Source: Butyrivibrio fibrisolvens 16/4 (GTDB lineage: Bacteria; Bacillota; Clostridia; Lachnospirales; Lachnospiraceae). Taken from it: a DNA stretch of 64,000 nucleotides. Shown one piece after another: positions 9,101-37,746 of this stretch. Where the stretch lies: assembly GCA_000209815.1 (NCBI GenBank), contig FP929036.1, positions 2,136,056 through 2,200,055 on the forward strand, given 5' to 3'. The notes under the pieces were generated by a model. That model saw only the letters and a list, made by a program, of their open reading frames with translations, had not been told where the DNA came from and did no database searches. Numbering within the stretch: position 1 is the stretch's first letter; every line of letters starts with the position of its first letter. The translations under genes were made by a program, and so were the position numbers.

Positions 9101-9452
9101 ATTGCTTTTCTGAATCCAAAGAATTAACAATAAACTCCTCATTGTGCTCATCTATAAGCTTATCTATTTCCGAATATGTATGTATCGCTTTATTTACATA
9201 AATAGAATCTTCCGCATTTTTAACACAGAATTGCTCTACCATATTACCTGATTTAATGGCATCAAAAAAATGAATTGTATTCACATAATTATTTATTAAA
9301 GGCACATACTCACGTTTTGAAATATATCGGTTACATTCCAACAAATCACTTAATGCATCATACAATTCATGTAACTTTATTAAATTCTCGTTCTGTGCCA
9401 CCTCTTTCTTATTCTTAATTCCACGTGGCAATAGTTTATCTAGTAGGCTCAA
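6153..9452 (-). CDS. UvrD/Rep-type DNA helicase with nuclease-like insert, zinc ribbons and RQC-like tail (frame split at three sites)
   Basis: Four frames assemble into about 1100 residues if one base is restored in each T run at 8519-8522, 8285-8289 and 6540-6545. SF1 motifs appear in order: Walker A AGAGAGKTTTVA, SFTNKAVNEL (Ia), VDEYQDISRQRF (II), VGDDWQSIYAFSG (III), TYRNSQDV (IV), TAHSSKGLGYDDV (V) and YVAMTRTKNR (VI). Between Ia and II sits an insert with YTPDFVI and TAYIEHFG, like the PD-(D/E)XK-type segment of helicase-IV relatives. After motif VI come two topoisomerase-type C4 zinc ribbons (CPICGY, CDQC) and a winged-helix-like segment reminiscent of RecQ RQC. Start is TTG with GAGGAAG upstream. 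It is probably a repair or defence helicase. Confidence 0.75.
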
Positions 9453-9615
9453 TACTAATACTTCCTCATAAGTTTTCTATTATTTAAAATTATAGCATCA
9501 AACGGCTGACAAAATAACTATTGTCACAAAAATTACAATAACATACAGTTGTGGATTTGTACTTTATAAAATACGCGGAATTATGGGATGTTCGATTGAG
9601 AAGACAGAACAAGCG

Positions 9616-12580: not shown

Positions 12581-13540
12581 CTATTTTGCAGCTTTTATAT
12601 AGTTATGTATTTCCTCTACTGAAGGCATAACCCTAAGAGCTCCACGTCGCGTAGTAATAAGAGAAGCAGCTGCATTTGCTGTTGTTAACATCTCTTTAAG
12701 AGAAGCCTCATCATAATTGTCTATTCCAACCTCAAGAACAGAATTGATAACTGACCCCATGAATGTATCTCCTGCACCTGTTGTTTCAATAGTATTAGGA
12801 TTTAAAAATGGAGCACACTCAACAACAGTATCACCATACAAGGCATAGCTGCCATCTTTACCAAGTGTGGCACATACAAGCTTTATTCCATATTTTTCCT
12901 TAATAATCTGAGCCCCTTTAAGGATATCTGTCTCTCCAGTAAAGAACTCTATTTCATTATCAGAGATTTTAAGAATATCGCATTTACGGAATCCAAAATC
13001 CATTTTTTCTTTAGCGATTTCTAAATCTGACCAAAGTGGTGGTCTAAGATTAGGATCAAAGCTTACTAAGATACCGCTTTCTTTTGCAGTATCCAAAGCC
13101 TTAATAGTTGCTTCCTCGACAGTTTTGTGTGTCATTGAAAGTGTACCGAAATGGAAAATCTTTGCCTTCTTAATAAGGTCAGTATCCACTTCATCAGCTG
13201 AAAGCATAACATCTGCTCCAGGATTTCTATAGAAAGAAAAATCTCTGTCACCATCCTCATAGGTATGAACAAATGCAAGAGTAGTATGAATATCCTTGTC
13301 ATACTTTAATCCACTTACATTAATGCCAAGACCTGCAACGGTGTCTGAAAGCATATGTCCAAAATTATCATCTCCAACCTTACCTATAAAGGCTGTGGAC
13401 TTACCATAATTCTGGAGCATTGCAAGCACATTACAAGGAGCTCCACCTGGATTTGCCTCCAACAGTGGATTTCCATGCTCACTTATGCCATTTTCAGTAA
13501 AATCTATTAATAGCTCTCCTAATGCAACTACATCAACCAT
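12581..13540 (-). CDS. scrK: Fructokinase (PfkB family)
   Basis: 319 residues. PfkB signatures: N-terminal VDVVALGELLIDFTE, the glycine-rich GGAPCNVLAML and the C-terminal TTGAGDTFMGSVI with the catalytic Asp. The phrase NPGGAPCNVA-like is typical of ScrK/fructokinases, and adjacency to GH32 supports fructose as substrate. It makes fructose-6-phosphate in the cytoplasm as the last step of the locus. GGGAGATTATTAA precedes the ATG. It is the final gene of the operon that starts at 18725. Confidence 0.88.
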   Translation of the reverse strand: MVDVVALGELLIDFTENGISEHGNPLLEANPGGAPCNVLAMLQNYGKSTAFIGKVGDDNFGHMLSDTVAGLGINVSGLKYDKDIHTTLAFVHTYEDGDRDFSFYRNPGADVMLSADEVDTDLIKKAKIFHFGTLSMTHKTVEEATIKALDTAKESGILVSFDPNLRPPLWSDLEIAKEKMDFGFRKCDILKISDNEIEFFTGETDILKGAQIIKEKYGIKLVCATLGKDGSYALYGDTVVECAPFLNPNTIETTGAGDTFMGSVINSVLEVGIDNYDEASLKEMLTTANAAASLITTRRGALRVMPSVEEIHNYIKAAK

Positions 13541-13562: not shown

Positions 13563-15086
13563 TTATAAATCGTATTTAACAATGTTAAGAATTGCATCTT
13601 CATTTGTATTGAAGAAGATTCCATCGCATGATACATCTGTAGGAAGTGAAGCTGTCATTACATAAAGACCATCCTCAAAGAATACTTCCATACTGTATCT
13701 ATCCATAACAATTCTAAGCTTGATAGAATCCTTATTCCAAGGAATATGAGCTCTACGCTGGTGCACTATTGCTCGTCTGCTACCGGAGAACTTTCTATCG
13801 ATTTTAGCGATATTCTCCTTAGGTCTAAGAACAATATCGGTATGATATTTTTCATCTGCTGCAATAGAAATGACAAACTTGTCAAACATTGCATCAACAT
13901 CCTTTGGTCTTACTTCAAGCTCTAAATCTAAGCAACGACCATTAATTCCCTCGAGAGAAATTGCTCCATCAATTGACTCGCTATCTCTGTCCTTTAAATC
14001 TGTTGTTGCGGAAATTTCAAAGTCTTTGTACGCAACCTTGCCGCTTCTCATGTCCTCTAATTCTTTGATTGGCCACTGGCGTAATCTTCCATCTTTGATA
14101 GAGATTTCTCTTGGAAGAGCCATCTGTCCAAACCAAGGCTCTCTGGCGTCGTGAGCACCTGCTGTATCCCAGTTCTGCATCCAACCAATCATTACACGTC
14201 TGCCATCTACCATTTCAACAGTCTGCATAGCGTAATAATCGATACCATAATCTACAGCCTGAACCTTTTCCTCTGTAAAGGAATCGGTAGCATCATCATA
14301 TCCACCAATAATACAGATATTACCATTTCCATTATGGAACTCGAAGCCTTCTGGAAGCATATCCTGTGGGCTTGTAAGAAGAACACCCTTGCCATCTAAT
14401 TCAAAGAAATCAGGGCACTCCCACATAAGACCATATCTGCCTTTATTAGAAGCGAAAACCTTTTCAAATTCCCATTTAAAGCAATCGTTACTCTTGAATA
14501 ATAAGAGCTGACCGCTGCCATCTGCTGCACGGTTAGCAACTAATACTCTGTATGTGCCATCCTTTTTCTTCCAAATCTTTGGATCTCTGAAATCAGTTTT
14601 GCTAGATCCCTCTGGAATCAAATCAGCATTAATAACTGGGTTGTTTTCGTATTTTTCATAATCAATTCCATCACCAACAGCAACACACTGTGTCTGGAAT
14701 TCTTTCATCTGTCCATTTTCTACTGTGCGCTTCATAACACCTGTGTACATAAGAAGATGTCTACCATCCTCAAGTGTAATAGCGCTTCCAGAAAATACTC
14801 CATCCTTATCATAGAATTCGTCTGGAGCTAAAGCTGCAGGAAGGAACTCCCAATGAAGTAAATCAGTACTTACTGCGTGTCCCCAATGCATTGGGCCCCA
14901 GTGAGCATCATATGGATGATACTGATAAAACATGTGATATTTGCCTTCATAATAGCAAAGACCATTTGGATCATTCATCCAACCAACACGTGGTGTTAAA
15001 TGAAACTTTGGTCGGGTTTCTTTTGCAATAAGTTTTTCCTGTGCTTCTTCGTATTTTCTTGCTTCGCGAAGAGTCTGACTGTTCAT
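13563..15086 (-). CDS. Cytoplasmic GH32 beta-fructosidase (sucrose/fructo-oligosaccharide hydrolase)
   Basis: 507 residues without signal peptide. The GH32 five-bladed propeller begins at about residue 27 with FHLTPRVGWMNDPNG (nucleophile Asp), followed by FSGSA, the transition-state motif FRDPKIW and the acid/base Glu in WECPDFF. A C-terminal beta-sandwich module follows. It probably hydrolyses imported inulin-type or levan oligosaccharides or sucrose to fructose. It lies downstream of the binding-protein gene across a hairpin and 22 bases before the fructokinase. Confidence 0.92.
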   Translation of the reverse strand: MNSQTLREARKYEEAQEKLIAKETRPKFHLTPRVGWMNDPNGLCYYEGKYHMFYQYHPYDAHWGPMHWGHAVSTDLLHWEFLPAALAPDEFYDKDGVFSGSAITLEDGRHLLMYTGVMKRTVENGQMKEFQTQCVAVGDGIDYEKYENNPVINADLIPEGSSKTDFRDPKIWKKKDGTYRVLVANRAADGSGQLLLFKSNDCFKWEFEKVFASNKGRYGLMWECPDFFELDGKGVLLTSPQDMLPEGFEFHNGNGNICIIGGYDDATDSFTEEKVQAVDYGIDYYAMQTVEMVDGRRVMIGWMQNWDTAGAHDAREPWFGQMALPREISIKDGRLRQWPIKELEDMRSGKVAYKDFEISATTDLKDRDSESIDGAISLEGINGRCLDLELEVRPKDVDAMFDKFVISIAADEKYHTDIVLRPKENIAKIDRKFSGSRRAIVHQRRAHIPWNKDSIKLRIVMDRYSMEVFFEDGLYVMTASLPTDVSCDGIFFNTNEDAILNIVKYDL

Positions 15087-15167: not shown

Positions 15168-16829
15168 TTAGTTAGCGTAGAAATCGTCAAAGTACTTCTG
15201 ATAAATATCAAGGTACTCTGCTACACCATAATCATCTACCTGCTTGAGGTAAGCATTCCAAGAATCATCTGTGATACCATCTCTGATGAACTCAGCCTTG
15301 CTTGAGTTAAGGTAGCTTACTAAGTCTGCCTGGATTGCTGAAAGCTTCTCTGTATCTTCAGAGTTCATAAATACACGTGGGTATACATACTTGCCGTGCA
15401 TATCATCTGTATAGTAATCCTTGATCCAATCAAGACGATACTGAGCATCATCTGGGCAAGTTACATACTTTCCATAGTACTCATCTAAGATTGCAAGAGG
15501 ACCACCAACACACTCAGCCTCACGTACTTCTACTGGAGAAGCATCGCCAAGTGGTGCATGCTTAAGCATCTTCTCGCCATCAGCGTTCTCGCCTAATTCA
15601 AAGATATCAAAATCATCGTCCTCACCATATGTTCCCCAGTTGTTCTGTGGAGACTGGAATGGATCGTACATCTTGTCAAGCCAAGCGCAAACGAATGCAG
15701 GATTCTTACATACACTTGTGATTACGCAACGACCTCTGTCGAAACCTGATGTGAATGAACCGTTCTGTGGTGTAACGTTTACTGTATCAGCCTTAAGAGC
15801 CTTAAGTGGAACGTAATCCTGAATGTTATCGATGTTAGCTACATCCCAAGAGAAGCAAACACCATATCTGTGTGACTTACCCTTTGCTACGTATGTAGCC
15901 CAGTCCTGAGTAAAGCACTCTGGGTCAATAAGGCCTTCAGCGTAAAGCTTGTGGAGCCATTCTGTACCCTTTCTGAAACCATCAGTTGTTGCTGTACAAA
16001 TAACCTTCTTGTCATCTGTTACTGCAATATGCTGACCCATATCTACATCACCGATACCATCGCCGAAACCGTTTGTAAGAAGGTTTGGATCCTGATCGTT
16101 TACGATGCAAGACATAGGAATGATGTCACCATCAATACCGAATTCCTTCTTAAGATCTGAAGCGTGCTCCTGGAATGCTAAAAGTACCTGCTCGAACTCA
16201 TCAACTGTTGTAGGTGTCTCAAGTCCAAGGAAGTCAAGCCACTTCTGATTGATGAATGTCATATTGTTACCAACTGTCTGGATAGCTGTCTTTTCGCTAC
16301 CAAGCTGCTCGATCCAAGGAAGTGCCCAAATGTGTCCATCCTCGTCCTCGCACATTGTTCTGTACTCTGGGTACTTATCAAATACTGCCTTAAGATTTGG
16401 CATGTTGTTATCGATGTACTCTTCAACTGGAACGATAACGCCCTGATCTGCATATCTGATTAAGTCGTTGTCGCCAAAACTAGCGTTAAATACCATATCT
16501 GTAAGTGTGTTTACATTTGACATATTGAGGGAAATCTTATCTCCCCACTGATCAGATGAGATTGCTGTCCAATCAACATGTACGTTTGTCTCTTCCTCAA
16601 GTCTCTTGAAGATTGTACGGTTGTTAGGATTCTCCTCTGTTCCTACAGGATAGCTGATTGTTCCTGTGATTGTTACCTGCTCTGCAAGTGGCCAAGTGAT
16701 GTTGCTTGCATCTACCTTGTCTGCATTGCTGGCATTGTTGCCACCCTTGCCACAGCCGACAAACATTGATGAAGCCATTGTCATCGCAAGAGCTGCAGCT
16801 ACAATACGTTTTGCATTTCTCTTCTTCAT
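15168..16829 (-). CDS. ABC transporter oligosaccharide-binding lipoprotein (LplA type)
   Basis: 553 residues, the long form of family-1 solute-binding proteins. A lipoprotein signal peptide ends SSMFVGCGKGG (Cys about residue 26). The body begins VTITGTISYP...ERLEEETNVHVDW, as in the CUT1/LplA group that binds larger oligosaccharides, and has many Trp and Tyr residues suited to sugar stacking. It works with the two permeases just upstream. The genetic context points to fructo-oligosaccharides as ligand, which is inference. Confidence 0.88.
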   Translation of the reverse strand: MKKRNAKRIVAAALAMTMASSMFVGCGKGGNNASNADKVDASNITWPLAEQVTITGTISYPVGTEENPNNRTIFKRLEEETNVHVDWTAISSDQWGDKISLNMSNVNTLTDMVFNASFGDNDLIRYADQGVIVPVEEYIDNNMPNLKAVFDKYPEYRTMCEDEDGHIWALPWIEQLGSEKTAIQTVGNNMTFINQKWLDFLGLETPTTVDEFEQVLLAFQEHASDLKKEFGIDGDIIPMSCIVNDQDPNLLTNGFGDGIGDVDMGQHIAVTDDKKVICTATTDGFRKGTEWLHKLYAEGLIDPECFTQDWATYVAKGKSHRYGVCFSWDVANIDNIQDYVPLKALKADTVNVTPQNGSFTSGFDRGRCVITSVCKNPAFVCAWLDKMYDPFQSPQNNWGTYGEDDDFDIFELGENADGEKMLKHAPLGDASPVEVREAECVGGPLAILDEYYGKYVTCPDDAQYRLDWIKDYYTDDMHGKYVYPRVFMNSEDTEKLSAIQADLVSYLNSSKAEFIRDGITDDSWNAYLKQVDDYGVAEYLDIYQKYFDDFYAN

Positions 16830-16890
16830 TTCTTTTTTCTCCTCCTAATTTATATAACAGCTTATGCTGCTATTAACTAATTAATTATTT

Positions 16891-17801
16891 TTAACCCTTT
16901 ACTGAACCCACCATAATACCTGCATCGAAGTACTTCTGGAAGAATGGATACATTACTAAAAGTGGTAAACTTGAAATAATGATAGTTGCATACTTAAGTA
17001 ATTCTGCCAACTGTGCTCTCTGTGCTGTAGACTGCATATCTGCAATCATCCCTGGGTCTGGTTGGTTCTGAATCAAAATAGATCTAAGAACCAGCTGCAA
17101 AGGTTGCTTTGAAGCAGAATTAAGATAAATCATTGCGTCGAAATAGCTATTCCACATTCCAACAAACTGCCATAGACAAAGGACAGCAATTACAGGAGCA
17201 CAAACTGGCAAAAGTATTTTGAAGAAAAAGGTTAATTCATTAGCTCCGTCTACTTCAGCAGCTTCTCTTAACTCTGCAGGGATACCTCTATAATAAGTTC
17301 TGGCAATAATCATATTCCAAACTGAGAATGTTCCAGGAAGGATTACTGCCCACATGCTATCAAGCAAGCCCATCTTGCTTATCAACAAATATGTAGGAAT
17401 CAATCCACCACCAAAGAACATAGTAATCATAAAAATGGTGTTAAAGAATTTTCTTCCCTTGAACTCCTCCAATGACATTGGATAAGCACAAAGCATTGTG
17501 ATAAACACAGATAAAAATGTAAATAAAACTGAATAAAGAATTGAGTTTTTAAATCCAACCCAAATCTGTGCATTTGAAATAACTCTTTCGTACGCGGTTA
17601 GTGTCCACTTTTCTAAATCGAATGTAAGACCCTTGTTCTGAAGAGTGATTGGATCCATAAATGATGCGATAACGATGTAAATCATAGGTACGATAATCGC
17701 AAGAACGAATAGGCCCAAAAGTATATAACCAATAAGTAAGAATGCCTTATCGCCTAGTGAATACTTGGCGAATTTACTTTTTTCTTCTTCTTTGTTTCCA
17801 T
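16891..17801 (-). CDS. ABC sugar permease, YtcP/LplC type (frame split near start)
   Basis: About 303 residues from ATG 17801 behind GGAGG (5-base spacing) if one base is restored in the T run at 17778-17783; otherwise an internal start gives 275 residues and loses the first membrane segment. Six transmembrane segments and the EAA loop EAAEVDGANELTFFFKILLP (about 20 residues, binds the ATPase) are present, and the tail ends DAGIMVGSVKG as in LplC relatives. No ATPase gene is nearby; such CUT1 systems commonly borrow a shared MsmX-like ATPase. Confidence 0.88.
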
Positions 17802-17813
17802 CATAACCTCCAA

Positions 17814-18725
17814 TTAAAGTCCCTGTCCGTCATTCATCTTTTCAACTACCTTATTAACAACGATTAATAAGATAAGGTTGATAACAGTGTTGAACAAACC
17901 AACGGCTGTTGAATAACTATAGTTTCCATCCAGAAGACCTTTCTTATATACATAGGTAGCAATGATTTCTGATGCACCTAAGTTCAAATCTGTCTGTAAT
18001 GCGTATGCCTTTTCAAAGCCAAGGCTCATGATGTTTCCGGCCTGAAGAATAAACTGGATAACTACCATATCTTTAATTGCTGGCCACTCAACTGCTTTGA
18101 TCTGCTGGAAGATATTTGCTCCATCAATCTGGGCAGCTTCTTTAAGTTCCTGGCTTGCATTTGCAAGTGCTGCAGTGTACATAATTGATGCCCAACCTGC
18201 ACCCTGCCAGATACCAGATGTAATGTAAATTGGTCTGAACGCTTCAGGTAATGTTAGGAAATTGATTGTAGTTCCAAGTAACATATTAAGTGGTCCTGTT
18301 ACTGAAAGGAAAATTCTAACCATACCGCAAAGTACGATAACTGAGATAAAGTTTGGCATATAAAGTACCAACTGAATCTTCTGTTTGATTCGCGCGCTCT
18401 CTATTCTATTAAGTAACAGTGCTAAGATAATTGGTACTGGGAAGCCCCACAATAATCCGAACACACTAAGCTTCAAAGTGTTTACCAGATATGTCATAAA
18501 ATCTGGTGATGAAAGAAATTGCTTGAAATATTCAAAACCAACCCACTCACTATTTAAGAATCCTTTGAATGGACTGTACTTTTCAAAAGCAATTAGAATA
18601 CCACCCATTGGTAAGTATCTGAAAATTATAGTCAGTAATAATGCTGGTCCTAAAAAGAACACATATAATCTCCAATGATGCATCACATACAGCCAAGTGT
18701 TATGCATTTTCGCCTTCGTCTTCAT
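17814..18725 (-). CDS. ABC sugar permease, LplB type
   Basis: 303 residues, six membrane segments, N-terminal FLGPALLLTIIFRYLPMGG and the EAA loop ELKEAAQIDGANIFQQIKAV. It is the first gene of the fructan transporter operon. AAGGAGGAGAA lies directly before the ATG, and the stop codon lies 12 bases before the next permease start. The promoter and operators lie in 18759-18818. Confidence 0.9.
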   Translation of the reverse strand: MKTKAKMHNTWLYVMHHWRLYVFFLGPALLLTIIFRYLPMGGILIAFEKYSPFKGFLNSEWVGFEYFKQFLSSPDFMTYLVNTLKLSVFGLLWGFPVPIILALLLNRIESARIKQKIQLVLYMPNFISVIVLCGMVRIFLSVTGPLNMLLGTTINFLTLPEAFRPIYITSGIWQGAGWASIMYTAALANASQELKEAAQIDGANIFQQIKAVEWPAIKDMVVIQFILQAGNIMSLGFEKAYALQTDLNLGASEIIATYVYKKGLLDGNYSYSTAVGLFNTVINLILLIVVNKVVEKMNDGQGL

Positions 18726-18818: not shown

Positions 18819-18903
18819 TTGTTATTTCAGGTTTGTGTAATGTATACAGAATGGGCTATTTACTTTTGTTCAAATGTATCATAATTTTTTCACATTTTTA
18901 CAT

Positions 18904-18971: not shown

Positions 18972-20027
18972 ATGGCGAATAAAGTCACCATTCAAGATAT
19001 TGCAGATGCCCTGGGGGTATCTAGAAATACAGTTTCAAAAGCTATCAATAATACCGGTATCCTTGCAGATGCCACCAGAGAAAAGGTTTTAGCAAAAGCT
19101 GTTGAGATGGGCTATAAACAATTTTCCTATGCTAATTCTATGGAAGATTTCCTAGATAAGGCTTCAGCAAAAAAACCTTTAGCAACTGGAGATATAGCTT
19201 TTTTCAGTGGTTCATTTCTAGACAATTCACATTTTGCATCTACTATGCTTGATAAATTTCAATATGAAATAACACAGCTGGGCTACGGTCTTACAATGCA
19301 GAGAATCACACCTGAGAATGTTGAGGCACTTAGTTTACCAGCTAGCTTTAATAAGGAAAGAACTCAGGGTATTATCTGCGTAGAGATGTTTAATCAAAAA
19401 TACTGCGAGATGCTTTGCGATTTAAACATTCCTATATTATTTGTAGATGCTCCCGTAGGCAGCTATAGTCATCAGCTTGCTGGGGATGTTCTTCTTATGG
19501 ACAACACCACTGGCATCTTCACTATTATCAGTGAAATGAAAAAACGTGGAATTAAGGAAATCGGCTTTATAGGAGAGTCAAACCACTGCCGTTCTTTCTT
19601 TGAAAGATATGTAGCCTTTAGAAATGCTATGTTCCTTAATGGTCTTGAGATTAACGAGGAATACTGTCTCACAGATATCCATAATCATGGACCAGAATAC
19701 TTTGCTTGTCTTTTCGAAAAGCTGGCAAAGCTCAAGAAATTGCCAGAGCTTTTCATCTGTGCAAATGATTTCGTTGCTATCGATCTTGTAAACTGTCTCA
19801 AGATTCAAAAGCATTCATACCCAGAGGATGTTATGATTTGTGGCTTCGATGATTCAGCAGAGTCAAAGGTTATGACTCCTGCTCTTACCACCTGCCACAT
19901 TCACTCACAGATTATGGGATTCACTGCTGCCAATCTCTTAGTATCAAGAATAGAGCAGCCAGATTTGAATTATCGTACCGTATATACGGAGGCAAATCTT
20001 ATTCTAAGAGGTTCCACTAAAGATTAA
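18972..20027 (+). CDS. LacI-family regulator, copy 1
   Basis: 351 residues. The N-terminal helix-turn-helix and hinge read VTIQDIADALGVSRNTVSKA and NNTGILADATREKVL, followed by a periplasmic-binding-protein-like effector domain (about 65-351) with FICANDFVAIDLV and ICGFDDSAES. It is divergent from the transporter operon and is paralogous to the regulator at 27201 (shared SRNTVS, GYKQF, ICGFDD). It presumably senses fructose or fructo-oligosaccharide. Terminator at 20041-20081. Confidence 0.92.
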   Translation: MANKVTIQDIADALGVSRNTVSKAINNTGILADATREKVLAKAVEMGYKQFSYANSMEDFLDKASAKKPLATGDIAFFSGSFLDNSHFASTMLDKFQYEITQLGYGLTMQRITPENVEALSLPASFNKERTQGIICVEMFNQKYCEMLCDLNIPILFVDAPVGSYSHQLAGDVLLMDNTTGIFTIISEMKKRGIKEIGFIGESNHCRSFFERYVAFRNAMFLNGLEINEEYCLTDIHNHGPEYFACLFEKLAKLKKLPELFICANDFVAIDLVNCLKIQKHSYPEDVMICGFDDSAESKVMTPALTTCHIHSQIMGFTAANLLVSRIEQPDLNYRTVYTEANLILRGSTKD

Positions 20028-20221: not shown

Positions 20222-21278
20222 ATGAGTAACAGAAAAAGAAGAAGAAAACAAAAAGAATGGCAAGTATACTGCTGATAGTAGTAGCACTTGTACTTGTGGC
20301 AGGTGTCGCTGCATATATGTTCTTGTCAAATAAAGATGATAGTGTAGATACAGCATTAGGTAGCGCCACTGAAAAGATTTCAAATGTAGCTAGCTCAGTA
20401 AAAACAGAGAATACAACCAGTACATCAAGCAACGGTGATATCTATGAAGGTTTTCTAGCTGGTAACGAGAAAATGAGCTTTTCTTATTATATGAGTGGCG
20501 ATAGCCTTAGCATTCATGAAAATTCACTTGACTATGAATTGTTTGCCAAGCTTGCTAACAAGGAATACACTCTTCCAGAGCTTGTTGATGGTATGAATAC
20601 TATCTTCACAGATCCTGATGGATTCTATGCACCACAGAAAATCAGCAAGATGTCTTATGCTTACCTTGATTGTGGAAAAGATGGCAACAAGGAACTTGCA
20701 TTGGAATTTGTATGTCCTATCGTTGAGGAAGAATCTACACTGACTATGATATTTAAAGAGATGGATGGAAAGCTTCAGCTTGTACACTCCTTTGATTCTT
20801 GGTCACGTGGAGAAGCTTCAATTAATGAATATGGTTATGTTACTTCAGGCGGTAGTGGCGGTGCTGCACTTCACTACTTCGAAGGTGGTTATATTGATGC
20901 ATCCGGAAAATACAACTTTGCCTACAGCGAAGAAGATTACAGTGGTGTAGATGCATTTGCAATGACATTTGATCATACTGATTTCAATACAGATATTGAG
21001 GCTCTTTCACTTGAGGGCATGGCAGAGATTTTTACTCTAAGAACAAAGCCTTCCACAACAGAAGATTATATGCCTGAGAAATATGCATACACCGTTGATG
21101 GCAGCACAAATCCTAATTTAGAGGATACTTACAAAGAAGTAATGAGTTGCTTCACAGATATTACTTTTATGAGCTATACAGATATGATGAAGATTGAAAC
21201 AGAAAGAAACAATGCCGTTGGTGCCACAGACGATATCATCGCTGGAAACCCAGTAGAGTTTAAGGAATTTTCTCTTAA
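20222..21278 (+). CDS. Hypothetical membrane-anchored extracellular protein (frame split)
   Basis: I do not recognise the family. ATG 20222 follows AAGGAG and gives a basic head MSNRKRRRK; restoring one base in the A run at 20250-20254 joins it to a transmembrane segment (ILLIVVALVLVAGVAAYMF) and a Ser/Thr-rich spacer. An alpha-beta extracellular domain with three blocks around YLDCGKDGNKELALEF and YYMSGDSLSIHENS follows. The visible frame reads on through a perfect terminator to 21639, which is implausible. One extra T at 21268-21271 would end it at 21278, about 350 residues, 20 bases before the hairpin. Lies between the regulator and the repeat-protein operon, so it may belong to the fructan locus. 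Confidence 0.6.
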
Positions 21279-21297
21279 AAATTTTAAAATGGCAATC

Positions 21298-21328
21298 AAA
21301 AGGGGGCTGCATTTTGCAGCCCCCTTTT
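21298..21328. terminator. Bidirectional terminator
   Basis: Perfect 14-bp stem (21298-21311 with 21315-21328) with a 3-base loop; four A on one side and four T on the other, so it works on both strands. It separates two convergent genes. Confidence 0.92.
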
Positions 21329-21364
21329 GCTATAACAATAACCTAATAGGGGAATGGTATTTGT

Positions 21365-24300
21365 CTATTCTTCCTCAGCCTTATCCTCAGAATCCTCATT
21401 GGTATTATCTTGGGATTCTTCACCAGATTCTTCCTCAGACTCTTTTTCTTCTGACTCCTCTGGTTTTACATCAGGCTCATCTGATTCATTTTCCTCAGCA
21501 GTTTTTTCCTCAGATTCTTCAGGCACATCTGCATCGTAAATCTTTACTTCCAGGCGTCCACCGTCATAGCTGTCGTTACCATCAGGGTCGATTGCAAACA
21601 TTACAGAGTCGCCCTTATGAACAGTATAAATTTCCTTGAAGGAAACTGTACGTTCCTCGCCAAAGTTACCCTGGATATCGCCACCAATCCACTTCTTTTC
21701 CTCTCCATTAATGAAGATTCTCATGCAAACACCATTTGCATTAGGATCTGCGCTGTTTGCAAATTTAGTGTAGCTTCCATCCACAACAATTTTGCCATTT
21801 TTTGCAGCCATCCACATGTAAGCCGCGTTTCTTCCATTGCCTGGCTCTACAAAATCAGGCTTGAGTTCTGGCTTTCCGTTATTGTAATAACGATTGTTTT
21901 CTTCATCGAATGGAAGTCTTTCAAAATTCTTTCCATCCCAATCGCACATACCATAGTACCAGCCGTTTTCTCCCTGAACGCCGCTAAAGTCATCTGCAAG
22001 TGTAGTCTTATTTTCTCTAACTTCCTCTTCTGGAATATCACTTGCATCGTAAATGTTTACAGATAGTCTACCAGCGTCCCAGGCATTGTTATCCTTTGCA
22101 TCAATTACAAAGGAAATCTTGTCTCCTCTTGAGACATTTACACCCTCAAGCATAAAGTTTACAGAGTTGTCATTTCCATCGCCTCTAAGGGCTTCTACAT
22201 CCTCAGTTACTACAACTGTATCATTTACATAAACAAGGACCTTTACGCCATCTGGCCAGCTTGGATTGCCATCATTTTGGCCGTACTTCACATAGTTGCC
22301 AAGTACATCGATTTTGCCATCCGCATAGACAACCCACTGATAAATAGCTGCTGCATCCTTAGCTGGATGTACGTAATCCTTCTTCATCTCCAGCCCTTCA
22401 TTCTTTGATGAAAGGAATGCTGAGCTATCATCATTTGTCTTCATCAGACATCTAGCTGAATCGATGCTCTTTCCTTCAAGGAACCACCAGCCATCCTGGC
22501 CCTGTGCAAGTGGTGTTGAAAGGGCACCAAGAGATGTATTGTTAGAGCGCTCTTCATCTCCAACTGTTACTCTAAGCTCGTCGGAATCTGCAATATCTAT
22601 ATCAAGACATCCTCCATCCCAGGCACTATTTTTATTGCAGCCAATATCAAATGTAAGAATATCTCCTGCCCTAACTGGAAGCTTAGAAAAATGAATATTC
22701 TTTATGGTTCTCTTGTCCTCACCTCGTGGACAAGTGCAAACCTCTTTATAAAGCTCATTATTATTTTTGTAGATTGAAACTACTACTCCATCTGGCCAAT
22801 CCATATTTGGATCCTCATTACCAAATTTTGCATAGCTTCCATTGATATCAATCTTTCCATCAGCAGCAACCACCCATTTGTACATTGCATGAGAATTGAG
22901 TCTAGGCTGAACATAATCTCTCTTAACCTCCAGCCATTTCTGCTTTCTAGAAACATATCCGCTTCCATCCTCTGTTTTCTTAGAAAGGATTTCAGCATTT
23001 TTGATTGAACGTCCTTCAAGGTAATACCAGCCATTGCTACCCTGCTCACCAAAATCAACCTTTAGATTTGCAAAGTTTTTCCACTTCTGTTTACCATATC
23101 GGTGGTCTTATTCACAGCATCCTCAACAACAAAGGTATAATTTCCACCGTCGTATGCTGTGTTTTCTTTTCCATCTACCAAAAGTGAGATACAATCCCCT
23201 GGCTTAACAGCAAGACCTTCATAGCTTAAATCCTTTGTAACCTCTTTTGATACCTCTGGAGCAAACTCTTCCTTCTTAAGAACAGTTTTATTTCTCATAA
23301 GATAAACTGTTGTGCCATCAGGCCATTCAGGATTCTTATCAAGATTCTTGTGCTTTGTGTATGTAGTTAAAACGTCAACACTGCCTTCTTCTTTTGCCAC
23401 CCATTTTACAATGGCAGCTCTGCCCTTATTACCAGGCATAATATAATCACGCTTAATCTCTACGCCATCTTTTGTAGTGTACTTTTCATTCTTAACATAG
23501 CTCTCCAGGTTTACTGCATACATAGGATCATTGTAATAACCTGACTGATAGCAAAGACCATTTACACCCTGTACATTAAAGTCCTCTACTGTAGAGCAAT
23601 TGTTAGATCTGCTAGGAGCATATGATACAACATTCTTTTCAGTCTTACCTGTAAGTGGAGTTATTCCCTTAATAGAGAATTCATACTTACCAGCATCATA
23701 CGCATTGTTTTCCTTTGGATTTACAACCATTGTGATGAAATCATCTTTTGCAACATCCACCTCTGCAACATCCAGGCGCTTTGTCACTTCGTTTATACGA
23801 TCTGGCTCAAAATCCTCTGAAATAAGAGGCTTGTCATTATGGAAAATAGTTACCTTTGTTCCATCTGGCCAGCTAGGATTTTTATCCTCATTCTTAAACT
23901 TTGTATAAGAAGCATCTATTTTGATTTTTCCAGTCTGAGCAACCTTCCACTTAATCACAGCGGAACGTCCCTTACCTGTATTTACAAAATCACGCTTAAT
24001 TTCAAGATAGCTTTCATCAAAATATCTTTCTTCGTCTTTTTCGAAGTTTGTCATATTCAGAGTGTCTGTTGGGTCATCCTCGTAGCCTTCCTGATAGAAC
24101 CAACCATTATTACCCTGCTCACCGAAATCGTATTTTACATCAGCAAAATTCTGTCTTGTTTCGGTTTCATCAATTGCCACATCCTTCTCGGTGGAGATGC
24201 CTTTTCTATCTAAAATGTTAATATCAAAGGCACCGCCATCATAGGATGCATTACCGTCAGCTGACACCATAAAATATAACTTATCCGCAGTCGTTACTTT

Positions 24301-25451
24301 TATGTCCTTATCACGGAACTTGATTTCATTAGTTCCTGATGAAGGAGCAGCTACTTTCTTTGTATATAAATTCTCCCCATTCTTATAAACAGAGACGGTA
24401 ACACCATCTGGATACTTAGGATTTCCATCGTTCTGCTCGAACTTTGAATATTTCATCCTAAGCTCTATATCTCCATCCACAGCTGGCTGCCAACAAAGAA
24501 TCGCATTATCATTGATAGATGGATGAATGAAGCCCTCACTCATTGTGAGATTTGGTGATGTGCTATTTAAATATTCCTTGCCATCAAATGCTGAAACAAG
24601 CTTTGCATCCTTAACACTCTTACCGTGAAGATATGTCCAACCTCTATGTCCCTCAGCACCGAAGTCCTCAAAGTTATTAGCATTATTATTTTTCTTTCAT
24701 GGTCAACAGTTGCCTGAAGTCCCTTATTATCAACATCATTTATTGATACATAAAGTGAGCCACCATCATAAGCATTATTTGCCTTTGCATCTACTACAAA
24801 ATAAAGGCTTTCAAGCTCTTTAACCTCCAGATCCTTGAGCTCCTGCTCTAGAACCTTTTCTGTTTCTGTGCTGACATCCACATCATATCTTCCCAGCATC
24901 TCGTCACCTTTATACGCATATACGGTAACACCATCTGGATATGATGGATTCTTATCACCATTTACAGATTTTACATATGTAAGACTAACATTTACTTTTC
25001 CAGCCTTTGCAGCGCGCCACTCTAAGATAGGAGCAGCAGCTTCAGAAGTATGGATGAAATTGTTTTTAACCTCAAGACCGCTTACACCACGCTGCGAATA
25101 TTTCTCTCCATCAAAATTCTCAAGTCTCTGTGAACGACTAGGAGTTTGCGCAGAGCCATATCGATAAAACCAGCCATTCTTTCCCTGCTCGCCGAAATCA
25201 CTTACGTTAAATGCGTTGTTAGTACGGTTTGGTACATCTACAAATTCAGGTTCTTCATACCCTTTTACATCAAACACCTCTGGCCATTTTGCTGATAGAA
25301 ATGTAAGACCTGTTTCCTCTACCAAGCCTCCATCACTAAGATTATTAGCAACTGTCAAAGCAGCTGCTGCACCGCCACCGATAACAGCCACGCCTGCCAG
25401 TGCAAACAATGCCTTTTTTGTGATTAGTTTTTTAACCACATTTTTTACCAT
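21365..25451 (-). CDS. Giant surface protein of seven tandem carbohydrate-binding-like modules (frame split at two sites)
   Basis: About 1362 residues once one base is restored in each T run at 24689-24693 and 23076-23080. The N-terminus has a basic stretch and a hydrophobic segment (ALFALAGVAVIGGGAAAALT), acting as signal peptide or anchor. Seven modules of about 165-185 residues follow, each with three marks: an opening FGEQGxNGWxYxxG, a middle [YW]PDGVxVxVYKN, and a closing NNAYDGGxLxVxI. The last module is degenerate (NANGV). The C-terminus is a Glu/Ser/Asp tail of about 50 residues without LPXTG. The all-beta pattern resembles non-catalytic carbohydrate-binding sandwiches, but I cannot assign a family. 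It starts 13 bases after the GH32 lipoprotein (AAGGGGGAATAAAT ribosome site), so it is probably a fructan-capture protein; this is inference. Confidence 0.75.
21530..25205 (-). repeat. Seven tandem protein-coding modules
   Basis: Approximate extent of the seven modules in the giant protein. The seven closing motifs are NNAYDGGS, NASYDGGA, NNAYDAGK, NTAYDGGN, NSAWDGGC, NNAWDAGR and NDSYDGGR. The repeat is at protein level; nucleotide identity between modules is modest, suggesting an old expansion. Confidence 0.8.
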
Positions 25452-25463
25452 ATTTATTCCCCC

Positions 25464-26969
25464 TTACTTAAATACCTTAAACTCCTCCACAGTCATCTTT
25501 GACTTAATACTAAAGATTCCCCATTCCATACCCTGTGAAAGATACATACGCTCCGTAAATGCGATATCTCCATTTACGTACATTGATACAACACCATCAG
25601 CTATAACCATCTTTACATCAAGCTGATCCATTTTTCCAAAATCATAATCCACATATGACTGTGGAACCTCTGCCATAATATTGTCTGTGTTGTAAAACTC
25701 AATACGCTTATTTGCAGCATTGAATACAATATTAAGCTTGCCTACGTTTTCACTATCAAGATTAAAGGCGAAACCAAACATTCCATTTTCATCGAAATCT
25801 TTGATTTTGGCATCCACAATATAGCTTCCAAGAAGACGCTTGAATCCTGCTACCTCATAATCTTCTCCAGAAAACTTAAGAACATCTCCATCAGCCTTTA
25901 TAGACTCTGTCAGCTTTTCAGGTGAAGCAGAAAGTTCATTTGTCATACCAGCTTCAATTTCATTTACCATTACAGGTCTAAGGCTGCCATCTTTTTCCTG
26001 AATCAGCTCGTGGGTAACCATATTGCCACCCCAGTCATATTCCGCATCATCAGCATGTCCTACCTTTGTACCGTTCCAACCAACAACAAAAAGTCTCTCG
26101 CCATCTGTTTCCATTCTTCCAGCATAGAAACCATTGCCATCAAAGAAATCTCTTGCAGGCTTTTTGAATCCTGACTTTAAATCATCTGTCACTCTGTAAT
26201 GAACAAGTCTGTTTGGCCACTGATCAGAGAATGAAAGATACCATTTATTCTTATATTTAAGAAGTGTTGGACACTCCATATTTGAATCTGTATCCATATC
26301 GTTTTCAAAGAATACGCCATCATCATTCCAGGTCTTTAAATCCTTTGAAGTGTACTTTGCAATTACACCAGTGTTGTTGCTTCTGGTAGTAACAAGCATC
26401 CAGTAGCAATCCTCATCCTCCATATATAAAACGTATGGATCTCTGAAGTCATTCTTTGCATAATTCTCGTTTGCGTAGAAAGTATCCTCAGGTACCTTCT
26501 CCCAATTTTCAAGGTCATCGCTAATGGCATGCATTACAGCTTCCTTTGGTTCATATGCATCATTATGACCTGTATAGAAAGCGTGATACTTTCCATTTTT
26601 ATCTTTGATTACACTACCTGTACCAAGTGCAATATCCTGATCTTTAATAGTCTCACCGTAATTAATTACAACTCCCTTGTCATCATAATTAACAAAATCC
26701 TTAGTCTGCATCATTGCCCAAGGATGATATCCCTGCTTACCATTTCTTTGATCTGCCAGGTAAAAAATATTGTAGGTACCATCATCATAAAATGGCATTG
26801 TATCACCTACGAATCCCTCGACTGATGCAGGGAAAACTACATGGTTATCTATGCTCTCTCCCAAATACTGTTCCTCCGCTTCCTGTTTAGCTTCTGATGT
26901 CCCTGCAGAACAGCCAATACAGCTTAGGCTAAGGGCGCCAAGCAAAAGCATAACGATTATTCTCCTCAT
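25464..26969 (-). CDS. Secreted GH32-type lipoprotein (fructan hydrolase)
   Basis: About 501 residues from the ATG behind AAGGAGGGTAT; a longer frame upstream lacks a ribosome site. Lipoprotein signal with SLSCIGC. The propeller has PFYDDGTYNIFYL (position of the usual WMNDPNG, with the nucleophile-equivalent Asp in FYDDG), FRDPYVLY (transition-state RDP) and MECPTLLKY (acid/base Glu), then a C-terminal beta-sandwich. It is a divergent GH32 anchored outside the membrane, likely trimming levan or inulin. It is the first gene of the operon with the seven-module protein. Because the first-blade motif is not canonical, activity should not be assumed. Confidence 0.82.
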   Translation of the reverse strand: MRRIIVMLLLGALSLSCIGCSAGTSEAKQEAEEQYLGESIDNHVVFPASVEGFVGDTMPFYDDGTYNIFYLADQRNGKQGYHPWAMMQTKDFVNYDDKGVVINYGETIKDQDIALGTGSVIKDKNGKYHAFYTGHNDAYEPKEAVMHAISDDLENWEKVPEDTFYANENYAKNDFRDPYVLYMEDEDCYWMLVTTRSNNTGVIAKYTSKDLKTWNDDGVFFENDMDTDSNMECPTLLKYKNKWYLSFSDQWPNRLVHYRVTDDLKSGFKKPARDFFDGNGFYAGRMETDGERLFVVGWNGTKVGHADDAEYDWGGNMVTHELIQEKDGSLRPVMVNEIEAGMTNELSASPEKLTESIKADGDVLKFSGEDYEVAGFKRLLGSYIVDAKIKDFDENGMFGFAFNLDSENVGKLNIVFNAANKRIEFYNTDNIMAEVPQSYVDYDFGKMDQLDVKMVIADGVVSMYVNGDIAFTERMYLSQGMEWGIFSIKSKMTVEEFKVFK

Positions 26970-27012: not shown

Positions 27013-27065
27013 ATACTATCATTATGGTGCATATGTATCAATTAGTTTGTGCAAATGTATCACAA
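27013..27065 (-). promoter_or_regulatory. Promoter and operator-like repeats of the GH32 lipoprotein operon
   Basis: On the minus strand, TTGATA (27036-27041) and TAGTAT (27013-27018) are 17 bases apart. The plus strand reads GGTGCATATGTATCAA across the -35 and TTGTGCAAATGTATCACAA at 27047-27065. These match words in the 18759-18932 region, implying a shared LacI-type regulator. Confidence 0.6.
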
Positions 27066-27200: not shown

Positions 27201-28247
27201 ATGAGTAACCGCGTTACCCTTCAGGAAATTGCAGACTCTCTTGGACTTTCAAGAAATACTGTTTCAAGAGCTTTAAATAACACAGGAAATGTTTCTGCCA
27301 GCACCAGAAATAAAATCTGCCAGGCCGCACTTGCTATGGGCTACAAGCAGTTTGTATCAGCTGATTCAATTGCACCACTTTCAGAATCACCAAGCCTTAC
27401 ACCTGGTGCCAAATCTGAAATTGCTTTATTCACACAGGCATTTCCAGGTAATTCCCATTCTGGAACAAAAATGCTAGAAGCCTTCCATCACAAAATTGAT
27501 GCATTAGGCTACAAGCTTTCTATAAACATAATTCGTGATTACGAAATAAATAACCTATGCTTTCCAGCAAATATAAATTTAGAAAACATCGCAGGCATAA
27601 TCTGTATGGAATTATTTTCTATCCCATACTGCGAATTTCTGTGCAAGCAGGGTATTCCGCTACTTTTTGTGGATACACCAATCACACAAAAGAGCTCTAT
27701 CGATGCAGATGTTTTGCTCATGGAAAATCTTTCAAGTGTTTACCATATGTTGGATTCCTTGGTGGAAGCAGGCAACAAAAAAATATCCTTTGTAGGTGAT
27801 CGTTTCCACTGCCAATCCTTCTATGAAAGATGGCAGGCATATGTTTCAGTCCTTGCAGACAGAGGGCTTACATTAGATACTGATTGTTGCATTCTTGCTG
27901 AAGACAGCGCGCCATATTCCGATGCCAATTGGCTAAGCGAACAGATTGCAGCCCTGCCTTCTATGCCAGATTTATTTTTCTGTGCCAACGATTTCCTTGC
28001 TATGTCAGTGCTTAAGGCATTACGATTACTTGGTAAAAATGTTCCAGAGGAAGTTCGTATATGCGGATTTGACGATGCACCAGAATCTACTCTTACAGAG
28101 CCTAGCCTTACTACTGTAAAAATCCACAGTAGCTCTATGGGATACACTGCTGCAGAGCTACTACTTTCACGTATTGCCAATCCACATATTCCTTTTAAGA
28201 AAACTTATATCGAAACAGATATTATTTACAGGGATTCATCTAGATAA
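27201..28247 (+). CDS. LacI-family regulator, copy 2
   Basis: 348 residues; HTH VTLQEIADSLGLSRNTVSRA followed by NNTGNVSASTRNKI and an effector domain with FFCANDFLAMSVL and ICGFDDAPES. It is divergent from the GH32-lipoprotein operon. Its close likeness to copy 1 (18972) and the similar intergenic layout indicate duplication of a regulator-plus-promoter unit. Confidence 0.92.
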   Translation: MSNRVTLQEIADSLGLSRNTVSRALNNTGNVSASTRNKICQAALAMGYKQFVSADSIAPLSESPSLTPGAKSEIALFTQAFPGNSHSGTKMLEAFHHKIDALGYKLSINIIRDYEINNLCFPANINLENIAGIICMELFSIPYCEFLCKQGIPLLFVDTPITQKSSIDADVLLMENLSSVYHMLDSLVEAGNKKISFVGDRFHCQSFYERWQAYVSVLADRGLTLDTDCCILAEDSAPYSDANWLSEQIAALPSMPDLFFCANDFLAMSVLKALRLLGKNVPEEVRICGFDDAPESTLTEPSLTTVKIHSSSMGYTAAELLLSRIANPHIPFKKTYIETDIIYRDSSR

Positions 28248-35554: not shown

Positions 35555-35593
35555 ACATTATCCCTCGATGAAATTATTAATTTGAGTTATAAG

Positions 35594-35608
35594 TACAAGC
35601 AGGGGAGA
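35594..35608 (+). promoter_or_regulatory. Shared 15-bp element upstream of the GH43 gene
   Basis: TACAAGCAGGGGAGA; the exact reverse complement lies at 37747-37761 upstream of the GH10 gene. It sits 40-54 bases before the GH43 start. Candidate binding site of a xylan-responsive regulator. Confidence 0.45.
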
Positions 35609-35640
35609 GTCTGTATTTTTAATTACTAAGTATAATCTTC

Positions 35641-37713: not shown

Positions 37714-37746
37714 TTCATTATCCCCCATGAAATATTATTTAACTCG

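Follow-up and report, generated by a model that had tools for sequence, protein, structure and literature searches.

A stand-alone seven-module surface array beside an endo-levanase-like GH32 lipoprotein: a candidate fructan-capture pair in Butyrivibrio fibrisolvens

Grass fructan supplies grazing animals with rapidly available sugar, and how a Gram-positive bacterium might hold such a polymer at its surface is the question raised by a locus of Butyrivibrio fibrisolvens 16/4. Within the 64,000-nucleotide stretch that we analysed (the window; contig FP929036.1, positions 2,136,056 to 2,200,055), a GH32 lipoprotein gene is followed by the coding region of a large protein made of tandem modules, here called the array (Table 1). 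An initial annotation of this DNA had proposed that the array is a surface glycan-binding protein. What, then, does the array bind, if anything, and how does it relate to the enzyme beside it?

An endo-levanase-like enzyme in a fructan locus

The GH32 gene lies immediately upstream of the array, 12 bases from its start, confirming the adjacency that had been claimed. Its product carries the N-terminal propeller domain of the family (Pfam PF00251, GH32N, 8.8e-32), and its nearest solved structures are BT1760 and variants of that enzyme (PDB, E 1.3e-52 to 1.9e-50). The catalytic nucleophile, RDP motif and acid/base are as in BT1760, with FVGD, FRDP and ECP aligned, and the inactive BT1760 variants in the PDB (D-to-N, D-to-A and E-to-A; PMC7618045 and PMC6560043) map to FVGD and ECP. 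Across 58 GH32 rows from 55 loci, GDxMP[FY], RDP and ECP occur together in 56, the two rows without the full set being halves of one split gene, and a signal with a lipobox-like pattern is visible in 31. Judged by these sequence features, the enzyme probably cuts grass fructan (levan) in an endo-levanase-like manner. Excerpts of earlier work describe an endo-levanase of B. fibrisolvens 3071 with known biochemistry but no sequence (PMC5245892), use of timothy-grass levan by the same strain, and growth of Pseudobutyrivibrio ruminis strain 3 on inulin and levan (both PMC11382395); the GH32-array pair offers a gene candidate for this kind of rumen Butyrivibrio activity, which had been characterised without a gene.

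The setting is as the initial annotation described it, with import genes, a second GH32 without a signal, a PfkB-type kinase and two LacI-family regulators nearby. At no more than one mismatch, an operator-like site occurs twice in the 3.16-Mb genome, once before the pair and once before the import operon, and a reversed-pattern control gave 0 matches. The endo-levanase-like GH32 and this site common to pair and import operon together strengthen the link to fructan. Exact copies of the 17-base motif are confined to three of the 56 loci, all close relatives (L091, L113 and L126); most other loci have no such motif, or 3-mismatch matches of doubtful meaning, and conservation of the site thus does not extend to the family as a whole. 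Only 7 of 20 relatives have the import operon within the flank that was fetched.

Table 1. Features of the window around the GH32-array pair
Feature	Position	Strand	Basis or remark
PfkB-type sugar kinase, fructokinase by context	12581..13540	(-)	Pfam PfkB 5e-59
Second GH32, cytoplasmic by absence of visible signal	13563..15086	(-)	Pfam GH32N 2.4e-101
CUT1-type import	15168..18725	(-)	Permeases 17814-18725 and 16891-17718 (Pfam BPD_transp_1); solute-binding protein 15168-16829 (Pfam SBP)
Operator-like site TGATACATTTGAACAAA, upstream of import operon	18865..18881	(-)	
LacI-family regulator, divergent from import operon	18972..20027	(+)	Pfam LacI 5.3e-11
Hairpin and T-run after array gene, terminator-like	21298..21328	(-)	Judged by eye
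Acidic C-terminal tail	21365..21520	(-)	Translation, orthologues
Array frame C, modules 5-7 and acidic tail	21365..23107	(-)	
Module M7	21521..22012	(-)	Predicted structure, pLDDT 95.2
Module M6	22034..22534	(-)	
Module M5	22574..23077	(-)	
Array frame B, modules 2-4	23062..24696	(-)	
Break 2, frame change at A-tract, between M4 and M5	about 23076..23080	(-)	
Module M4	23107..23604	(-)	
Module M3	23653..24150	(-)	Predicted structure, pLDDT 88.2
Module M2	24196..24687	(-)	
Array frame A, anchor and module 1	24567..25451	(-)	
Break 1, at A-tract, between M1 and M2	about 24689..24693	(-)	
Module M1	24723..25220	(-)	
Array N-terminus: basic start, one hydrophobic segment (membrane anchor), linker	25221..25451	(-)	Translation
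GH32 lipoprotein, endo-levanase-like	25464..26969	(-)	Pfam, PDB; open frame to 27041; ATG preceding signal peptide at 26969
Operator-like site TGATACATTTGCACAAA, upstream of GH32-array pair	27046..27062	(-)	
LacI-family regulator, divergent from GH32-array pair	27201..28247	(+)	Pfam LacI 2.5e-11

Layout of the array and its reading-frame breaks

Seven tandem modules of 164-168 residues lie on the minus strand where the initial annotation had placed them, and their likeness is beyond chance: a profile built from the other six finds each module at E 1e-30 to 1e-56 (one-sequence search), and shuffled sequences gave 0/600 matches at E 0.01. Taken against M3, the other modules are 24-41% identical. 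Three motifs had been said to mark each module. In strict form this is too strong: FGEQGxNGWxY and NNA[YW]D[GA]G are each found in three of the seven, though relaxed forms of both are present in all, and [YW]PDG[VT]xV is present in six. A comparison of 432 modules from relatives shows several near-invariant residues, among them Y82, K84, N148 and D152 (numbered as in M3) and W25 and R98 (in M7), and orthologous arrays hold 7-12 modules, mainly beta. These arrays begin with a membrane anchor and keep an identical module order in 51/51 proteins, and the M7 type, the commonest repeated module type among relatives, is present in 1 to 6 copies at the far end of the 39 proteins uncut by a contig edge. 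This positional conservation weakens avidity by simple repeats as the sole role of the array; the avidity originally proposed can be part of the picture only, as the modules have position-specific identities.

A hydrophobic N-terminal segment is present in 54 of 58 array orthologue rows, the remaining four being rows without a true start, and a lipobox-like cysteine accompanies the anchor in 13. The C-terminal tail of this protein and its orthologues shows no sortase motif and no transmembrane segment, and a Pfam search of the window's array frames found no catalytic domain. The array protein is accordingly predicted to be exported, membrane-tethered and non-catalytic.

The single protein of about 1362 residues that had been reported is not one open frame here. 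The array span (21365-25451, 4087 bases) is not divisible by three and is read in three overlapping frames, whereas 17 of 20 fetched relatives have a single frame of 1302-1583 residues; among the other three, L076 is split, and L078 and L082 run off the contig. The array frames of P. ruminis CF1b and P. xylanivorans are intact. At the A-tract of break 1, two of the closest relatives (L063 and L064) carry one more A. That one gene has two breaks while most of its neighbours appear intact could mean that the array of this strain is a decaying pseudogene and not an assembly artefact. We regard decay as rather improbable, since the modules flanking each break remain 84-99% identical to three close relatives, the three frames hold no further internal stop, and long-read assemblies typically lose bases in A-tracts. 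Programmed frameshifting at both A-tracts, yielding deliberate one-, four- and seven-module forms, would fit the position of both breaks in linkers, at A5 tracts, with each needing a -1 shift. Against it stand the uninterrupted frames of relatives and the extra A in two of them, a UvrD-like gene in the window that is broken in the same manner, and the fact that neither tract, as we read it, is a tandem-slip heptamer of the classic kind; we hold such frameshifting to be highly improbable. The UvrD-like gene, sought in 12 other genomes as a possible test for an assembly artefact, was absent from all of them at E 1e-30.

Fold and distant kin of the modules

Searches made with single proteins and with alignments at loose cut-offs found no match of the modules to Pfam or NCBIfam that reached a curated cut-off, and module profiles gave only chance-level matches to PDB sequences, in agreement with the view that the modules belong to no named family. 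Loose-cut-off matches to AbrB-like, DUF5122, phage tail tube and other models were weak and scattered (E about 0.001-0.3), all below the curated cut-off, and were set aside. For CBM66 there was neither a Pfam match at cut-off nor a PDB match, and the libraries searched presumably contain a CBM66 model or structure. M3 and M7 are predicted as beta-sandwiches (pLDDT 88 and 95). Foldseek searches with the two models returned weak likeness (TM-score by query 0.34-0.48). Among the best 50 rows of each search, 12 and 11 name a carbohydrate-binding module (CBM), fewer than the 22 and 18 that, by our count, are C1q/TNF-type domains. Superposition on CBM6, CBM35 and CBM51 was likewise weak (TM by query at most 0.48), and C1q/TNF-type jelly rolls scored alike.

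In other Lachnospiraceae, GH28-like and beta-helix proteins (L083-L088) carry homologous modules (profile E 1.4e-9 to 1.2e-13). There one or two copies are fused to another protein, in contrast with the free array of the window, and glycans other than fructan are the likely ligands. Other distant relatives sit on proteins that, on our reading, have no known sugar link. With kin on other-glycan proteins and on sugar-unlinked ones, the fold does not prescribe fructan. The modules may bind sugars; if they do, they would form a new binding family that lacks a Pfam entry and has relatives on pectinase-like enzymes. The same kin could speak for a general plant-material adhesin, whose modules would bind another plant glycan, pectin or hemicellulose, and keep the cell attached to fragments of grass while the fructanase merely profits. 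We think this quite improbable, because all true arrays with sufficient flank are tied to this fructanase and because the fructan import operon is the only other one with the operator-like site of the pair. Separately, the family genome G238 (L090) encodes a distant protein, esterase-like, that has several weak copies of the module and lies apart from that genome's GH32 relative; it was left out of the array counts.

Pairing across genomes, proposed role and known systems

We identified 56 array loci among 84,980 species, and the GH32 gene is directly upstream in 55 of them; the contig of the 56th begins inside the array. For true orthologues, then, homologues do not lie mostly away from fructan genes. 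The scan was seeded with the anchor-to-module-1 region and so finds orthologues only, being blind to arrays without that start. Whole-genome profile searches, which do not share this bias, found arrays in 21 genomes (this one included), with GH32 adjacent in 19 and the two others (G013 and G390) at contig edges. Across 29 genomes of the genus, 16 have both genes, 11 neither, one the array only and one the GH32 only (Fisher p 4e-6, kinship uncorrected), both single-gene genomes being at contig edges. Since the two genes are kept together in relatives, the array is a good candidate for holding fructan. A close array is absent from 28 of the 32 family genomes that encode a BT1760-like GH32 (the 31-41% ones), so a BT1760-like enzyme can do without one.

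That the array is linked with a single close group of GH32 enzymes, and not with the BT1760-like clade at large, would also suit an array that binds no sugar and acts as a spacer or docking scaffold, keeping the endo-levanase or the solute-binding protein some way off the membrane. The fixed module order resembles a structural series more than avidity repeats, and the near-invariant residues point the same way. Such a scaffold nevertheless seems unlikely to us: the GH32 has its own signal, with its lipobox-like pattern in many rows, the distant module relatives are accessory modules on carbohydrate enzymes, and the varying number of far-end copies is odd for a fixed dock.

We favor, with a probability of roughly 0.6, a stand-alone surface glycan-binding array that holds fructan, probably levan, and works with the neighbouring endo-levanase, binding being what we infer. 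The surface glycan-binding counterpart that the initial annotation had proposed is supported in part, by the GH32 pairing, the endo-levanase-like GH32 and the shared operator-like site; the distant relatives on pectinase-like and beta-helix proteins count against a fructan-specific fold. In the favored arrangement the array would extend from the membrane through the wall, and several modules would bind fructan chains, with levan or grass phlein the first choice and mixed graminan or inulin possible. Bound polymer would stay near the tethered endo-levanase, and released oligofructosides would be handed first to the solute-binding protein and permeases and, inside the cell, to the cytoplasmic GH32 and sugar kinase. 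Conservation of order among the first modules points to a fixed role of the membrane-near part, which may be docking or spacing, and the variable count of module-7-type copies at the far end may set reach or avidity. More tentatively, we can picture the pair as the equivalent, in Gram-positive bacteria, of the levan utilisome. A free, membrane-tethered array of 7 to 12 modules from a new carbohydrate-binding family specific for grass beta-2,6-fructan would then capture polymer for the endo-levanase beside it in Butyrivibrio, Pseudobutyrivibrio and Erysipelotrichaceae, and the modules close to the membrane would serve as a dock, the repeated outer ones as a fishing line.

We found no published description of the array in the open-access literature, a weak negative. 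CBM38 is an inulin-binding, GH32-linked module of Gram-positive bacteria, and both it and CBM66 are fused to an enzyme, whereas the window's modules form a separate protein. CBM66 (SacC-type fructan-binding) resembles the array modules as a fructan-linked and GH32-linked accessory module of Gram-positive bacteria (sections of PMC5320581 and PMC11382395). The fructan locus of PMC5320581 has GH32, ABC import, a LacI regulator and fructokinase, as here, but the available text describes no stand-alone array such as the window has. Gram-positive loci (gpPULs) are viewed, in part of PMC10318527, as lacking surface glycan-binding proteins (SGBPs), which are often replaced by CBMs of endo-acting enzymes; if the favored reading is true, the array would depart from this view as a free surface binding protein encoded in a Gram-positive fructan locus. 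Similar in kind is Sas20, the starch adherence protein of the gut bacterium Ruminococcus bromii, a non-catalytic multi-domain surface polysaccharide binder in a Gram-positive species, which differs in binding starch, having two binding domains and being part of the amylosome (excerpt of PMC9112005). A close parallel is the levan utilisome of Bacteroides thetaiotaomicron, in which a surface endo-levanase that shares the GH32 type, Bt1760 (GHlev), is likewise combined with a separate membrane-tethered binding protein, Bt1761 (SGBPlev) (sections of PMC7618045). PDB profile searches, which included utilisome entries 8a9y, 8aa0 and 8aa2 and, we take it, their SGBP chain, found no sequence relation between Bt1761 and the array. 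According to the same sections of PMC7618045, Bt1761 is a lipoprotein of three domains (construct residues 2-438) that binds levan through one domain, built of beta-sheet and helices, and is found in a complex with SusCD, in contrast with an array of 7-12 mainly beta modules that stands without SusCD; the job that we would assign to the two is the same.

Modules and reading frames of the array gene

The window's genome, a single contig of 3.16 Mb, belongs by kinship to the genus Pseudobutyrivibrio, and its array modules share 84–99% identity with the P. xylanivorans DSM 14809, Pseudobutyrivibrio sp. 49 and P. ruminis CF1b modules. The encoded protein has a basic, hydrophobic N-terminus, seven modules (M1 to M7) and an acidic tail. 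The seven tandem modules proposed in the initial annotation are real: each has 164–168 residues and, in a one-sequence search, was matched at E 1e-30 or lower by a leave-one-out profile built from the remaining six, and no match was found among 600 shuffled control sequences. The single reading frame assumed there did not hold, as the window's assembly has three frames (A, B and C) separated by two breaks.

Coordinates of the GH32–array pair, the array frames and the operator-like sites in the window
Feature	Position	Strand	Remark
GH32 gene	ATG 26969, stop 25464	minus	
Array gene	start 25451	minus	12 bases after GH32 stop
Frame A	24567-25451	minus	anchor and M1
Frame B	23062-24696	minus	M2-M4
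Frame C	21365-23107	minus	M5-M7
17-base site	27046-27062		upstream of the pair
17-base site	18865-18881		upstream of the import operon

Both breaks lie at A5 tracts within inter-module linkers. At break 1, relatives L063 and L064 carry A6 but are otherwise almost identical in sequence; at break 2, the adjoining letters differ from those of relatives, whose frame is whole. The array is a single frame of 1302–1583 residues in 17 of 20 fetched regions of relatives, the others being split (L076) or truncated by the contig end (two regions). Among 56 loci from a wider scan, the frame is split in L128 and L136 (the latter from the same genome as L076), and the L111 and L127 arrays are split at a run of N. 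The breaks are most likely assembly errors, with gene decay a possible alternative. A UvrD-like helicase gene at about 6536-9476, which we sought in 12 other genomes and found in none, has two breaks of the same manner and three frames, and its split may share a cause with those of the array.

The Butyrivibrio hungatei array at L128 9971-14887 is divided into frames of 708 and 924 residues, and a terminal stretch of the latter resembles part of another protein. In the window, a plus-strand ORF at 20257-21639 with no Pfam family runs without a stop across a terminator-like hairpin and reaches the antisense of the array; it perhaps ends before the hairpin. Adjacent GH43 and GH10 genes at 33200-37728, with highly similar ricin-type plus CBM2 tails, are probably a xylan-degrading pair with a common C-terminal cassette.

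A single N-terminal hydrophobic segment was present in 54 of 58 orthologue rows from the 56 loci, the other four being second halves or starting inside the array. A lipobox-like cysteine occurs in 13 of the 58 and is absent from the window's array, and neither an LPXTG-like motif nor a C-terminal hydrophobic segment was seen in the 42 rows whose end lies clear of a contig edge. When 432 modules from 51 proteins were assigned by best match to the window's modules, their order was the same as the window's in all 51, and 50 begin M1-M2-M3 (L136, a second half, is the exception). Thirteen Butyrivibrio proteins carry a doubled M3 (manual count), and the number of M7-type copies ranges from 1 to 6 in the 39 proteins away from contig edges and from 0 to 5 in the 12 at an edge, with 7 to 12 modules in total in uncut single-frame arrays. 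Y82, K84, G97, N148, D152 and G154 are conserved in 97–100% of modules, and W68 in 98%.

Pairing with GH32 and distribution

By module profile search, 17 of 29 genus genomes, the window's included, carry arrays, as do four further genomes of a 397-genome family sample. GH32 lies directly upstream in 18 of the 20 regions fetched around other arrays; the remaining two are at contig edges. This GH32 was likewise present in 17 of the 29 genus genomes: 16 have both genes, 11 neither, one the array only (G013) and one a GH32 fragment only (G012), the last two both at contig edges (Fisher p 4e-6, kinship ignored). Scanning 84,980 species with full-length array queries yielded the 56 loci. A position mostly away from fructan genes would have counted against the proposed fructan link, and these orthologues did not show it: a GH32 homologue (46–99% identity) is directly upstream in 55, and in the 56th, L093, the contig begins within the array. 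In the 51 loci where it was measured, the GH32–array gap ranges from −20 to 160 bases; four more GH32 neighbours were found separately. Flanking LacI homologues were found at 30 of the 56 loci, 29 of them with an upstream, divergent arrangement.

The loci come from Pseudobutyrivibrio, Butyrivibrio, Agathobacter ruminis, other Lachnospiraceae and Clostridiales, one Oscillospiraceae-labelled MAG and MAGs labelled Erysipelotrichaceae or Solobacterium. Titles of eight name a ruminant gut sample, and many others are presumably of rumen origin, going by strain or RUG names. In the Erysipelotrichaceae- or Solobacterium-labelled MAGs (L109, L115, L118, L119, L123, L125, L127, L129, L131, L143 and L145), GH32 is 50–53% identical, and the pair reflects either inter-family transfer or binning error.

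Of 32 family genomes with a BT1760-like GH32 at E 1e-40, 28 (all but G000, G077, G319 and G331) have only a 31–41% GH32 relative and no close array; two of these, G206 and G238, carry distant modules in other proteins. Of five such regions inspected, three (L186, L188 and L189) have import genes, two GH32 genes and a fructokinase-like gene but no array. The array thus represents an add-on within a single branch of an already known locus type. L188 5323-14000, a fructan-type locus with two GH32 genes, a fructokinase-like gene and permeases 69% identical to the window's, is a natural array-free comparison.

Fold and distant relatives of the modules

The initial annotation could match the modules to no named carbohydrate-binding family, and they match no family in Pfam, NCBIfam or PDB sequences. 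The predicted structures of M3 and M7 are beta-sandwiches, and among their best 50 Foldseek PDB matches (TM by query 0.34–0.48), 12 and 11, respectively, are named as CBMs (CBM35, CBM6, CBM51, CBM4, CBM36 and a porphyran CBM) and 22 and 18 are C1q/TNF-type domains (manual count). A CBM-kind jelly-roll without a nameable family is plausible from these models.

Weaker relatives within family genomes (E 1.6e-7 to 1.2e-13) occur on proteins that a Pfam scan of L083-L086 assigned to GH28 and beta-helix types, and on other large secreted proteins. At E 1e-5 distant modules were found in five others of 398 wider genomes, and manual reading placed these on, among others, a GH2-like and a beta-helix protein. 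The pattern FSxxQGxNGWYY...HP...DTVxxW occurs in many secreted enzymes. Beta-helix proteins at L083 6912-12536 (1874 residues; by Pfam scan also with CBM96, Big_4 and choline-binding repeats) and L087 1311-7016 (1901 residues) each carry one distant module. The 1675-residue esterase-like protein at L090 7182-12209 carries several weak module copies, ends in an LAETG-like sequence and represents a second, distant multi-copy architecture.

The partner GH32, a shared site and the reading of the array

Among solved structures, the best relatives of the window's GH32 lipoprotein are wild-type BT1760 and its inactive variants (E 1.3e-52 to 1.9e-50), described as the endo-levanase 6R3R and its E221A form 6R3U (PMC6560043) and as inactive GHlev 7ZNR; levan utilisome work employed a D42A form (PMC7618045). 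The FVGD and ECP motifs of the window's GH32 contain the positions altered in the variant PDB sequences, and its RDP motif is retained. All three motifs are present in 56 of 58 GH32 rows (55 loci); the remaining two rows are the halves of a single split gene (L113). A strict lipobox expression matched 31 of the 58, and many of those failing it have a post-signal cysteine with an atypical preceding residue. BT1760 is described as cutting levan from timothy grass, and an endo-levanase of Butyrivibrio fibrisolvens 3071 as characterised without a gene sequence (PMC5245892); growth of Pseudobutyrivibrio ruminis strain 3 on inulin and levan is described in PMC11382395.

A 17-base site, TGATACATTTGNACAAA, has two genome matches at one mismatch or fewer, before the pair and before the import operon, and its reversed control pattern has none in the genome. 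At two mismatches the window holds three matches against 0.16 expected, and the exact site is found in only 3 of the 56 loci. We infer that the LacI proteins bind it, and in the window's genome the pair and fructan import apparently share one switch.

An endo-levanase-like lipoprotein stands beside the membrane-tethered, non-catalytic array wherever the contig permits. With this neighbour and a switch apparently shared with import, the array is best read as a putative polymer-capture protein, for which levan, phlein, graminan and inulin would be candidate ligands. It putatively works like surface glycan-binding proteins; its sequence places it outside the family of Bt1761, the levan-binding SGBPlev of Bacteroides thetaiotaomicron.
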